Assembly: GCF_900115395.1 (NCBI RefSeq)
Contig: NZ_FOWE01000011.1
Span: 1-64,000 of the forward strand
Source of the DNA: Geodermatophilus obscurus
GTDB lineage: Bacteria > Actinomycetota > Actinomycetes > Mycobacteriales > Geodermatophilaceae
Length of the DNA stretch: 64,000 nt
Reading direction: 5' to 3'
Shown: one piece after another, positions 57,924-61,381 of the stretch
How positions within the stretch are numbered: the stretch's first letter is position 1
How the letters are laid out: the number at the start of each line of letters is the position of its first letter
Position numbers and translations under genes: made by a program
The notes under the pieces: generated by a model
What the model saw: the letters and a program-made list of their open reading frames with translations, nothing else
Database searches by the model: none
What the model was told of the DNA's origin: nothing

Positions 57924-58841
57924 TCACGCCGCGCCGGCCCCCTGCGCCACCGGGACCGGCCGGCGCACCCGGCTGCGCCGGCGGGACAGCGCCACGCCCG
58001 CCAGGCAGACGACACCGCCCACGACAGCCAGCGCCGGCGGCACCTCGTCGAGCAGCAGCCACGACATCGCGATCACCAGCGGCGGCACCAGGTAGGTGGT
58101 GACCCCGAGCCGCCCGGCGTCGGTGCGGGCCAGCGCGTAGGCCCACGTGCTGAACGCCAGCGCCGTCGGCACCACGCCCAGGTAGACCAGGCCGAGCACC
58201 GATGACGCGGGCGCGGCGGCCAGGTCGGACACCAGCGCGCCGGTCCACGGCAGGCAGCACACCGCGCCGATCGCGCAGGCCGTCAGCGTCACCTGCAGCG
58301 GGGGGATCCGGCGCAGCACCGGCTTCTGCGCCACGACGCCGACGGCGTAGGTGACCGCCGCGACCAGGCACAGCAGCACCCCGGTCAGGTCGCCGCCGCC
58401 ACCGCCGGTGGCCACGCCGATGAGCAGCACCCCGCCGAAGGCGACGGCCAGGCCGGCCACCAGCCAGCGCGGGAACCCCTCGCCCAGCCAGACGCCGGCC
58501 AGCACGGCGATGAGCACCGGCCCGGTGTTGACCAGCATCGCCGTCGTGCCGGCGTCGAGGTGCTGCTCGGCGGCGTTGAGCGCGACGTTGTAGACCGCGA
58601 ACCAGCCGACCCCGCACAGGACCAGCAGCCGCCACTCCTGCCGCGTCGGCGCCACCCACCCGCGGCCGAGCGACAGCAGCGCGAGCACCGCCGTCCCGAC
58701 CAGCAGCCGCCCGAGCGCCAGGGCACCGGGTGAGACGTCGGAGCCCACCGCCCGGATGCCGATGAACGCCGACGCCCACGCGAGCACGGTGACGGCGACG
58801 GCGGCGAGCACCGGCAGGGACACCGCGCGGGAGGAGGGCAT
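57924..58841 (-). CDS. EamA/DMT-family transporter
   Basis: A 305-residue ten-helix transporter of the drug/metabolite superfamily with two EamA repeats: VLAWASAFIGIRAVGSDVSPGAL in the first and AVTYAVGVVAQKPVLRR with LGVVPTALAFSTWAYALART in the second. It exports or takes up small metabolites; substrate unknown. It ends 4 bp from the convergent DUF998 gene. Its ATG is 99 bp downstream of the NmrA-like gene. Confidence 0.88.
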   Translation of the reverse strand: MPSSRAVSLPVLAAVAVTVLAWASAFIGIRAVGSDVSPGALALGRLLVGTAVLALLSLGRGWVAPTRQEWRLLVLCGVGWFAVYNVALNAAEQHLDAGTTAMLVNTGPVLIAVLAGVWLGEGFPRWLVAGLAVAFGGVLLIGVATGGGGGDLTGVLLCLVAAVTYAVGVVAQKPVLRRIPPLQVTLTACAIGAVCCLPWTGALVSDLAAAPASSVLGLVYLGVVPTALAFSTWAYALARTDAGRLGVTTYLVPPLVIAMSWLLLDEVPPALAVVGGVVCLAGVALSRRRSRVRRPVPVAQGAGAA

Positions 58842-58884
58842 GCCCTGAACGTAGGGAGGGCCACCGACGCCGCGCTGGCGACTT

Positions 58885-58927
58885 CCGGACTCCGCACCGG
58901 ACCTGGCAGGACCGCTGCGGAGTCCGG
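58885..58927 (-). terminator. Hairpin after NmrA-like gene
   Basis: CCGGACTCCGCA (58885-58896) and TGCGGAGTCCGG (58916-58927) form a perfect 12-bp stem with a 19-nt loop, 13 nt after the stop of the NmrA-like gene on the minus strand. Confidence 0.5.
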
Positions 58928-58940
58928 CAGGGAAGGCGCG

Positions 58941-59693
58941 CTACGCGCCGCGCAGGTGCTCGGCGTAGGTGCGCCGGCCGCGCGCCGCGCGCGGGCCGGG
59001 CAGCACGCCACCCCCGCGGAAGGCCGCCGAGAGCCTGCCCGGGAGCGGCGTGGCCACGACCCGCGCGCCCGGCTCGCGCGCGGCCGCCCACGCCCGGGCG
59101 AGGTCGGCGGCCGCCAGCACCTCGGGCCCGCCGAACTCGACGACGTCGGCGCTGGGCGGGCGGCCGGCCACCTCGGCGAGGAAGCCCGCCGCCTCGCCGA
59201 CGTCGACCGGCGCCGCCTGCCAGCTCATCGGCACCGGCAGCACCGGGCCGCGGCGGGCGGTGGACAGCAGCTCGTCGACGAAGTGGTGGAACTGGGTGAT
59301 CCGCACGATCGTCACCGGCAGCCCGGAGGCCAACAGCACCTGCTCGGCGGAGAACTTGGCCCGGTAGTAGCCCCACGGCACGCGGTCGACGCCGACGATC
59401 GAGACGTACACCAGGTGCTGCAGACGCGCCCGGTCGAGGGCCTGCACGAGCCGGCGGGTCCCGGCGACGTCGACCTGCCACGGGTCGCCGCGCGGGTCGC
59501 TGGCGGCGTGCACGACGAGGTCGACCCCGCGCACCGCGGCCGCCAGGTCGCGGCCGGTGGCGAGGTCGGCCCGCACCCCACCGGGACCCGCTCCGCGGCG
59601 TGACATCTGCCGCACCGCGTGGCCCGCCTGCTGCAGCGCGGGCACCACCCTCCGGCCCAGTGGGCCGCTGCCTCCGGTGACCAGTACCTCCAT
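58941..59693 (-). CDS. NmrA-like NAD(P)-binding protein
   Basis: A 250-residue atypical SDR: VLVTGGSGPLGRRVVPALQQ at the N-terminus, VDLVVHAASDPRGDPWQVDV, YVSIVGVDRVPWGYYRAKFS with YxxxK-like spacing, then a C-terminal domain. Relatives include epimerase-like and NADPH-sensor proteins. Function not predictable. Its ATG is 89 bp from the divergent XRE-MurA gene. Confidence 0.82.
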   Translation of the reverse strand: MEVLVTGGSGPLGRRVVPALQQAGHAVRQMSRRGAGPGGVRADLATGRDLAAAVRGVDLVVHAASDPRGDPWQVDVAGTRRLVQALDRARLQHLVYVSIVGVDRVPWGYYRAKFSAEQVLLASGLPVTIVRITQFHHFVDELLSTARRGPVLPVPMSWQAAPVDVGEAAGFLAEVAGRPPSADVVEFGGPEVLAAADLARAWAAAREPGARVVATPLPGRLSAAFRGGGVLPGPRAARGRRTYAEHLRGA

Positions 59694-59753: not shown

Positions 59754-59769
59754 ATCTCACGTGCGAGAT
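59754..59769 (+). promoter_or_regulatory. Candidate operator of the XRE-MurA gene
   Basis: ATCTCACGTGCGAGAT is a near-perfect palindrome (arms ATCTC and GAGAT) 13 nt upstream of the XRE-MurA GTG, in the gap shared with the divergent NmrA-like gene. Its position suggests autoregulation by the protein's own HTH domain. Confidence 0.45.
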
Positions 59770-59782
59770 ACCGTGGCCTCCC

Positions 59783-61381
59783 GTGACCGCGACCGAGCTC
59801 CCGGCCGAGACGACGACCTCCTCGCCTGCCCTCCCCTCCCCCGTCCTGGCCAACGCCGCCCTCGCCAGCGCCGCCCGCATCGGCGCACTCGTGCGCGACG
59901 CCCGCCGCCACCGCGGCCTGACCCAGCAGCAGCTCGCCGAACGCCTGGGCACCAGCCAGAGCGCCGTCGCCCGCATCGAGCAGGGGGGCCAGAACCTCAC
60001 CCTCGAGCTGCTGGGCCGCCTGTCGGAGGCACTGGAGAGCGAGCTCATCAGCGTCGGCCCGGCCGGCCCCACGCACCTGCGGGTCACCGGCGGCACGCCG
60101 CTGCGCGGCAGCGTCACGGTGAAGTCGTCGAAGAACGCCGCCGTCGCCCTGCTGTGCGCCGCCCTGCTCAACCGCGGCCGCACCACGCTGCGCAACGTCG
60201 CCCGCATCGTCGAGGTCGACCGGATCCTCGACGTCCTGCGCTCGATCGGCGTCTCGGCCACCTGGGACGCCGCCGGCCGCGACCTCACCCTGCAGGTGCC
60301 CGACGAGCTGGACCTCGCCGGCATCGACGCCGACGCCGCCCGCCGGACCCGCAGCATCATCATGTTCCTCGGCCCGCTGCTGCACCGGTTCCGCGAGTTC
60401 CGGCTGCCCTACGCCGGCGGCTGCGACCTCGGCACCCGCACCGTCGAGCCGCACATGATCGCGCTGCGGCAGTTCGGGCTGGCGATCGAGGCGCACGCCG
60501 GCGAGTACCAGGCCACCGTGGCCGCGACCGACCCCGGCCGGCGGACCATCGTGCTGACCGAGCGCGGGGACACCGTCACCGAGAACGCGCTGCTCGCCGC
60601 GGCGCGCACCGAGGGCACGACCGTCATCCGCAACGCCAGCTCCAACTACATGGTCCAGGACCTGTGCCTGTACCTGCAGCTGCTCGGCGTCGGCGTCGAG
60701 GGCCTCGGGACGACGACGCTCACCGTGCACGGGCGGACCGTCCTCGACGCCGACGTCGACTACACGATCAGCGAGGACCCGGTCGAGGCGATGAGCCTGC
60801 TCACCGCCGGCATCGTCACCGGCTCCGAGCTCACCGTCTGCCGGGCGCCGGTGGAGTTCCTCGAGATCGAGCTCGCCGTGCTGGCCGAGATGGGGCTGCG
60901 CTACACGCTCTCGCCGGAGTACCGCGCCGACAACGGCCACACCCGCCTGGCCGACGTCACCATCTCGCCGTCGCAGCTCAAGGCCCCGATCGACAAGATC
61001 CACCCGATGCCGTTCCCGGGGCTCAACATCGACAACCTGCCCTTCTTCGCCGTCATCGCGGCGACGGCGAGCGGCTCGACGCTGATCCACGACTGGGTCT
61101 ACGACAACCGGGCGATCCACCTGTCCGACCTGACCCGCCTGGGCGCCGACGTCCGGCTCATGGACCCGCACCGCGTGCTGGTGACCGGCCCGACCCGCTG
61201 GCGCAGCGCCGAGGTCGTGTGCCCGCCGGCGCTGCGGCCCGCGGTGTGCCTCCTGCTGGCGATGCTCGCCTCGCGCGGCACGTCGGTGCTGCGCAACGTC
61301 GACATCATCGCCCGCGGGTACGAGCACCTCTACGAGCGGCTGGTGGAGATGGGCGCCTCGATCGAGGTCTTCTCCGACTGA
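59783..61381 (+). CDS. XRE-type HTH fused to MurA-like enolpyruvyl transferase
   Basis: A 532-residue fusion. Residues 31-86 are an XRE-type HTH (LVRDARRHRGLTQQQLAERL, then GTSQSAVARIEQG). Residues 95-532 match UDP-GlcNAc 1-carboxyvinyltransferase, which starts peptidoglycan precursor synthesis: SSKNAAVALL (Lys117), GGCDLGTRTVEPH with the fosfomycin-target Cys (Cys214) and PGLNIDNLPFF (Asp417). Catalytic residues look intact, but family stretches such as GFPTDMQ are altered. It may be a secondary MurA, a regulator sensing UDP-GlcNAc, or both. GTG 59783 chosen for its lead into the HTH. Confidence 0.88.
   Translation: MTATELPAETTTSSPALPSPVLANAALASAARIGALVRDARRHRGLTQQQLAERLGTSQSAVARIEQGGQNLTLELLGRLSEALESELISVGPAGPTHLRVTGGTPLRGSVTVKSSKNAAVALLCAALLNRGRTTLRNVARIVEVDRILDVLRSIGVSATWDAAGRDLTLQVPDELDLAGIDADAARRTRSIIMFLGPLLHRFREFRLPYAGGCDLGTRTVEPHMIALRQFGLAIEAHAGEYQATVAATDPGRRTIVLTERGDTVTENALLAAARTEGTTVIRNASSNYMVQDLCLYLQLLGVGVEGLGTTTLTVHGRTVLDADVDYTISEDPVEAMSLLTAGIVTGSELTVCRAPVEFLEIELAVLAEMGLRYTLSPEYRADNGHTRLADVTISPSQLKAPIDKIHPMPFPGLNIDNLPFFAVIAATASGSTLIHDWVYDNRAIHLSDLTRLGADVRLMDPHRVLVTGPTRWRSAEVVCPPALRPAVCLLLAMLASRGTSVLRNVDIIARGYEHLYERLVEMGASIEVFSD

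Follow-up and report, generated by a model that had tools for sequence, protein, structure and literature searches.

Our comparisons point toward a second, catalytically competent MurA in Geodermatophilus obscurus that would act as its own dedicated repressor (we put the probability of this reading at roughly 0.7). The first committed peptidoglycan precursor is the product of MurA, which is also the target of fosfomycin. The gene lies in the window, the whole stretch of 64,000 nucleotides that was analyzed, and its product, HTH-MurA, carries a helix-turn-helix (HTH) of the XRE type in front of a MurA-like enzyme domain. The N-terminal XRE domain would bind a 16-bp palindrome, presumably as a dimer; with the palindrome abutting and overlapping the −10 box of a (nearly) leaderless promoter, the bound protein would exclude RNA polymerase. 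The reserve MurA would thereby be held at a low, self-limited level, and other inputs could add expression under stress or in late development (in Streptomyces SigB and BldM-WhiI, according to the papers cited below). From sequence comparison we infer DNA binding by HTH-MurA, repression rather than activation of its own promoter, and enzymatic activity. The features concerned are as follows.

59754 to 59769, no strand: operator-like palindrome ATCTCACGTGCGAGAT; exact arms once in the genome, conserved upstream of orthologues
59769 to 59774, plus strand: −10-like box TACCGT (TANNNT); first base common with the palindrome, 8 nt ahead of the start codon
59783 to 61381, plus strand: HTH-MurA coding sequence, GTG start, 532 amino acids plus stop
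59891 to 60037, plus strand: XRE DNA-binding domain (Pfam HTH_3), residues 37 to 85
60038 to 60073, plus strand: short linker from HTH to enzyme, judged from the spacing between HTH end and SSKN in homologues
60074 to 61369, plus strand: MurA-like enolpyruvyl transferase domain, residues 98 to 529 (matches to NF006873, TIGR01072 and MurA structures in the PDB)
60131 to 60133, plus strand: Lys117, equivalent to Lys22 of Escherichia coli MurA; K in 118/118
60422 to 60424, plus strand: Cys214, equivalent to Cys115; C in 118/118
60560 to 60577, plus strand: ERGDTV loop, residues 260 to 265, where E. coli MurA has the UDP diphosphate loop (Lys160 to Ala165)
61031 to 61033, plus strand: Asp417, equivalent to Asp305; D in 118/118

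The fusion proposed in a preliminary description of this DNA is borne out by both domain profiles. In the translation of positions 59783 to 61378, HTH_3 scored 51 bits (cut-off, 23) over residues 37 to 85, and EPSP_synthase scored 163.3 bits (cut-off, 22.8) over residues 101 to 520. The broader MurA model NF006873 was matched with 318 bits (cut-off, 297); the cut-off of the murA equivalog TIGR01072 was not reached (308.8 versus 392.7 bits), and the closest PDB matches are solved MurA structures. The HTH, whose absence from close homologues the preliminary description had named as evidence against itself, is present in all 118 unique homologues aligned (from 139 loci; the homologues behind this and all residue counts were gathered by blastp). 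Residues T57, S58, Q59, S60, A61, R64, and E66 of the HTH are invariant in an alignment of 28 sequences, and 42 residues separate the HTH end from SSKN in 117 of the 118 homologues. The N-terminal extension of HTH-MurA varies widely across Geodermatophilaceae; at one locus (L100, G057:C23), a short peptide unit, SATPHAHES, is tandemly repeated before the HTH.

Compared with E. coli MurA (b3189; TIGR01072/NF006873), to which the match is full length, HTH-MurA differs in its N-terminal HTH, its score below the equivalog level, and replaced positions in the UDP pocket, whereas Lys22, Asn23, Arg91, Cys115, Arg120, Asp305, Arg371, and Arg397 are kept. The lysine of the SKNA motif, the catalytic cysteine, and the aspartate reported earlier are thus all confirmed by alignment. 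Positions Lys22, Asn23, Arg91, Cys115, Arg120, and Asp305 show zero variation among the 118 homologues, and Arg371 and Arg397 are constant wherever ungapped (2 and 4 of the 118 rows are gapped; Arg397 is seen in 114/118), so that the catalytic and phosphoenolpyruvate-site residues (Lys22, Cys115, Arg120, Asp305, Arg397) are retained. The roles of Asn23, Arg91, Pro121, Leu124, Thr304, Arg371, and Arg397 are those usually given for MurA. Six replacements are fixed in 118/118 (P121T, L124P, S162G, V163D, G164T, and T304I), and D369P is found in 116/118 with 2 gapped, next to a one-residue insertion that makes it less certain. A passage of PMC4062475 names Lys22, Cys115, Arg120, Asp305, and Asp369 as ligand residues of MurA, and one of PMC8698320 gives Ser162-Val163-Gly164 as the diphosphate region. 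This loop is not retained in HTH-MurA, which has G-D-T in 118/118; ordinary actinobacterial MurAs keep each of the three residues in 11 or 12 of 12 sequences. The surrounding ERGDTV is invariant in the 28-sequence alignment. Since the same GDT loop is found in all 11 genomes in which HTH-MurA is the only MurA found (see below), the altered loop seems to permit MurA function.

More tentatively, HTH-MurA could be a ligand-gated trigger enzyme, in which the MurA domain reads substrate saturation and opens the promoter of the reserve murA. Closure of the active site around UDP-GlcNAc plus phosphoenolpyruvate, or else formation of a covalent adduct at the cysteine, would be relayed to the HTH via the linker of fixed length; the nucleotide loop, with its uniform replacements, would serve to tune the sensing. 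Once the ordinary MurA is lost, selection would remove the operator, and the enzyme would stay.

The search for a primary murA suggested earlier turned up an ordinary copy elsewhere in the genome. The EPSP-synthase superfamily has three members there: HTH-MurA, the ordinary MurA (C21:159293-160507), and an AroA-like protein. The self-regulated second MurA envisaged in the preliminary description accordingly gains from the comparison, with an ordinary murA elsewhere, a conserved palindrome, and the HTH in 118/118. At the position of the fosfomycin-target cysteine, the ordinary MurA (G000:C21:159293-160507, L001) has aspartate, in the motif GGDAIG, and HTH-MurA retains cysteine; we therefore rejected a fosfomycin-resistant second MurA as unsupported. 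Aspartate at the Cys115 position was found in the ordinary MurA of 5 aligned Geodermatophilaceae (L001, L151 to L154) and cysteine in 7 from other families, which restricts the contrast between the two enzymes to these five copies.

Two families contain genomes in which no ordinary MurA was found beside HTH-MurA. Among 61 genomes sampled from the Rarobacter faecitabidus (G121) family, 27 have HTH-MurA, 4 of them without an ordinary MurA; among 24 of the Serinibacter arcticus (G127) family, 23 have it, 7 of them without an ordinary MurA. G154, with only short fragments of another MurA, was counted as having both, and none of these 61 + 24 genomes lacks both enzymes. The HTH-murA of G132, G482, G486, and G503 is on contigs about as long as the genome; G174 and G487 are fragmented, which weakens the absence there. 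By the superfamily profile, G121, G132, G157, and G127 contain HTH-MurA and an AroA-like protein, and G174 contains HTH-MurA and one short unassigned fragment; the control, G119, has HTH-MurA, an ordinary MurA, and an AroA-like protein. MurB was found in all six. Because HTH-MurA is the only MurA-like superfamily member found in these five of the sole-MurA genomes, MurB is present, and the loop is the same, the enzyme would most likely feed MurB there.

This last point bears on a different role that we consider unlikely, that of an enolpyruvyl transferase for an acceptor other than UDP-GlcNAc, like NikO in nikkomycin synthesis. Retention of the phosphoenolpyruvate-site residues with replacement of seven other positions in 116 to 118 of 118 sequences would fit such an enzyme, and NikO (PDB 4fqd) belongs, as a weaker relative, to the same MurA-type sequence family. 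Its match (2e-27) falls behind those of true MurAs (1.5e-53) and covers the MurA part only. We take NikO to use an acceptor other than UDP-GlcNAc and to be without an HTH. Against this role stand the five genomes just described, with MurB, the same loop, and HTH-MurA as the sole MurA-like member of the superfamily.

The palindrome ATCTCACGTGCGAGAT comprises 16 bp with 6/8 pairs complementary and stops 13 nt short of the GTG at 59783, as described earlier, and it recurs at orthologue promoters. Within the window alone, palindrome sites with up to two mismatches are chance-like (8 found versus 7.4 expected). The exact arms, ATCTC-N6-GAGAT, have a single copy in the genome of 4.96 Mb (none for the reversed-pattern control), and this single copy together with the same placement in orthologues makes the palindrome more than a chance occurrence. 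One-mismatch palindrome sites were found at 54 places versus 11 for the control. The loci compared were L004 to L113 (110), nine of which (L017 to L022, L024, L026, and L027) were left out of parsing. The exact site lies within 230 nt upstream in 94 of the 101 parsed loci (near-duplicates included; 90 unique sequences). It is missing there from L023, L034, L060, L063, L091, L093, and L100, of which L100 (G057) carries an exact palindrome further upstream; L017 has a one-mismatch palindrome in the same place. The next base after the palindrome is A in 94/94 exact sites, all of which have TANNNT in a single register; neither feature was a selection criterion. The first in-frame start codon comes 6 to 8 nt past TANNNT in 92/94 (0 or 2 nt in the other 2), and the HTH-murA mRNA is therefore probably leaderless or nearly so.

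HTH-MurA is found in many actinobacteria. A scan of genome contigs confirmed at least 576 relatives among at least 592 pattern matches; among the 80 kept, holders include Geodermatophilus, Blastococcus, Klenkia, Cellulomonas, Promicromonospora and relatives, Streptomyces, Kitasatospora, and others. An E value of 1e-120 is reached by 12 of 296 genomes sampled evenly across the phylum, the own genome included. By row tally, 93 of 112 genomes of the window's family have HTH-MurA, three of them (G017, G038, and G097) as split or cut pieces only, and 19 lack it; six further matches (G032, G084, G086, G089, G092, and G094) have one internal stop codon.

In this family, the palindrome plus −10 box is found in 85/93 gene-bearing versus 1/19 gene-less genomes. 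The 21-nt pattern of both elements occurs in 86 of the 112 genomes, once in each, with a reversed-pattern control of zero, and it adjoins HTH-murA in the 85, G038, where a contig end truncates the gene, being the exception; G070 has the pattern and no HTH-murA. Eight gene-bearing genomes lack the strict pattern: G065, G085, G089, G103, and G106 have a one-mismatch form in place, G097 has a gene fragment, and in G063 (L093) and G064 (L091) the site is lost although an ordinary MurA is present. Conservation of the palindrome in orthologues, the lack of which the preliminary description had counted against itself, is thus seen with the gene across families. Its call for further copies of ATCTC-N6-GAGAT genome-wide yielded none besides the gene's own promoter, and the control of wall-precursor genes that it had considered found no support: with a single exact copy in the own genome and one palindrome-plus-−10 site per family genome, we rejected a wall-precursor regulon for this genome as unsupported. 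In 16 genomes of named relatives, ATCTCAN5GAGAT occurs somewhere in 15 and, by coordinates, at the HTH-murA start in 11. These genomes hold 13 exact places away from the HTH-murA start versus 2 for the reversed pattern, a control that contains TAG/CTA and by our reasoning is strict in coding-rich DNA; a regulon of one is therefore a weaker claim outside the window's family.

Members of the family are found in Streptomyces, whose murA2 has been the subject of developmental studies. The promoter of SCO5998 printed in PMC8346170 matches two of our Streptomyces loci (45/46 bases in L064, 44/46 in L056), some 320 to 340 nt upstream of the HTH-murA start, and we therefore take SCO5998 (MurA2) of S. 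coelicolor as the orthologue; from the common name MurA2, we assume that sven5810/vnz_28735 is the same gene. In the passages concerned, SCO5998 is SigB dependent and monocistronic (PMC8346170) and, called MurA2, a predicted DmdR1 target beside aconitase (PMC12161575); murA2 of S. venezuelae is footprinted by BldM-WhiI (PMC4125116), and on its overexpression the whiI effect on exploration was not reproduced (PMC11005364). These passages present MurA2 as a UDP-GlcNAc transferase controlled by SigB, by BldM-WhiI, or, as a prediction, by DmdR1, and mention neither an HTH nor a palindrome nor autoregulation.

In a rival reading that we regard as improbable, the palindrome belongs to a different regulator (e.g., of the MarR or TetR type), with the fused HTH binding elsewhere or doing nothing. 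A second palindrome, ATCTCGATGTCGAGATA (ATCTCG-N4-CGAGATA), does lie upstream of some Streptomyces HTH-murA genes; SCO5998 adjoins aconitase (PMC12161575), whose gene is repressed by the MarR-family TamR according to passages of PMC5487221, and SigB, BldM-WhiI, and DmdR1 are reported or predicted on this region in the passages cited above. The site of ATCTCACGTGCGAGAT type, however, tracks the gene in the window's family (85/93 versus 1/19, once per genome) and is also upstream of HTH-murA in families without the window's neighbors, and from a general regulator one would expect further copies. ATCTCGATGTCGAGATA itself was seen upstream of HTH-murA in 5 of the 8 Streptomyces loci examined (L049:4663, L056:4533, L064:4588, L069:4533, and L053:2156), about 0.5 kb upstream or nearer in 4/8 and 2.8 kb upstream in L053; our guess is a TamR-type site of the adjoining aconitase.

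The genomes without the ordinary enzyme offer a natural test of self-repression. We compared 50 HTH-murA regions from the Rarobacter and Serinibacter families (11 sole-MurA, 39 with an ordinary MurA), scoring the operator in place against the 13 positions of ATCTCA-N4-YGAGATA; G485 and G483 were read individually, outside the automated parsing. A score of at least 12, a threshold picked after the scores had been seen, is reached in 0/11 sole-MurA genomes (range, 8 to 11) versus 37/39 with an ordinary MurA. The two exceptions are G186, with a score of 11 and the arms of AACTCATCCATGAGTTA still symmetric, and G483 (L245), in which the operator is lost despite an ordinary MurA. The TANNNT box is preserved 12 to 14 nt before the start in 11/11 sole-MurA genomes. 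All seven sole-MurA genomes of the Serinibacter family retain ATCTC on the left and have an altered right arm, with one base different in G485 (which counts as nearly intact under a looser rule allowing one arm mismatch) and two or three in the other six. In the four of the Rarobacter clade, the promoter is covered by other sequence, and a palindrome or the remnant of one ends some 85 nt upstream of the start. An operator almost always kept beside an ordinary copy and damaged or displaced in the sole-MurA genomes suggests an enzyme that turns off its own gene; the pattern backs self-regulation and renders autorepression directly testable. On the tree, the ordinary MurA was lost in three changes, and the operator went in the same direction in an average of 2.8 of three independent pairs (G186 and G483 being labeled operator-less); with only three independent lineages (sign test, P = 0.25), significance is out of reach. 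Operator loss with the ordinary MurA kept (G063, G064, and G483) runs contrary to the simple model. Two HTH-MurAs, L186 and L187 (G168 and G147), have intact operators, are joined to the tree by a very long branch (1.07 changes per column), and may represent a diverged subfamily or a transfer.

Some XRE proteins act as activators, and a weak promoter requiring help is conceivable, but activation of its own promoter by HTH-MurA is quite improbable: the site overlaps the −10 box and reaches 15 bases upstream of it, a position for repression, and the −10 box is retained where the site has decayed, in genomes that should depend on the gene. Least probable is a transcription factor whose dead MurA fold senses UDP-GlcNAc or phosphoenolpyruvate for wall-precursor genes, for which the HTH fused at fixed spacing and the altered nucleotide pocket would speak, since the catalytic residues are invariant, no other MurA was found in 11 genomes, and a second exact site is absent from the own genome.

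PutA, BirA, and NadR are enzymes that repress their own genes. As proposed for HTH-MurA, an enzyme and a DNA-binding domain are joined in one chain that addresses its own promoter; HTH-MurA differs from them in that its apparent target is its own gene only. A MurA with an HTH, a DNA-binding role, or autoregulation did not turn up in searches aimed at one in an open-access library, which leaves out most subscription papers, and a conserved, self-repressing second MurA would apparently be new for MurA and of a general kind already known. If true, a MurA doubling as its own repressor would provide direct gene-level feedback on wall synthesis.

A conserved operon partner was considered and rejected, with an upstream NmrA-like gene at at least 41 of 110 loci and a downstream VOC gene at at least 2 of 110; the neighbor counts are lower bounds, as part of the loci hold about 1.5 kb of flank only. 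Among the NmrA-like matches listed (40 of 41), none is from outside Geodermatophilaceae. In that family, NmrA-like (41/110) and EamA-like genes (34/110 loci, both lower bounds) are frequent neighbors of HTH-murA, and in the window the two lie at positions 57924 to 59693, divergent from it.
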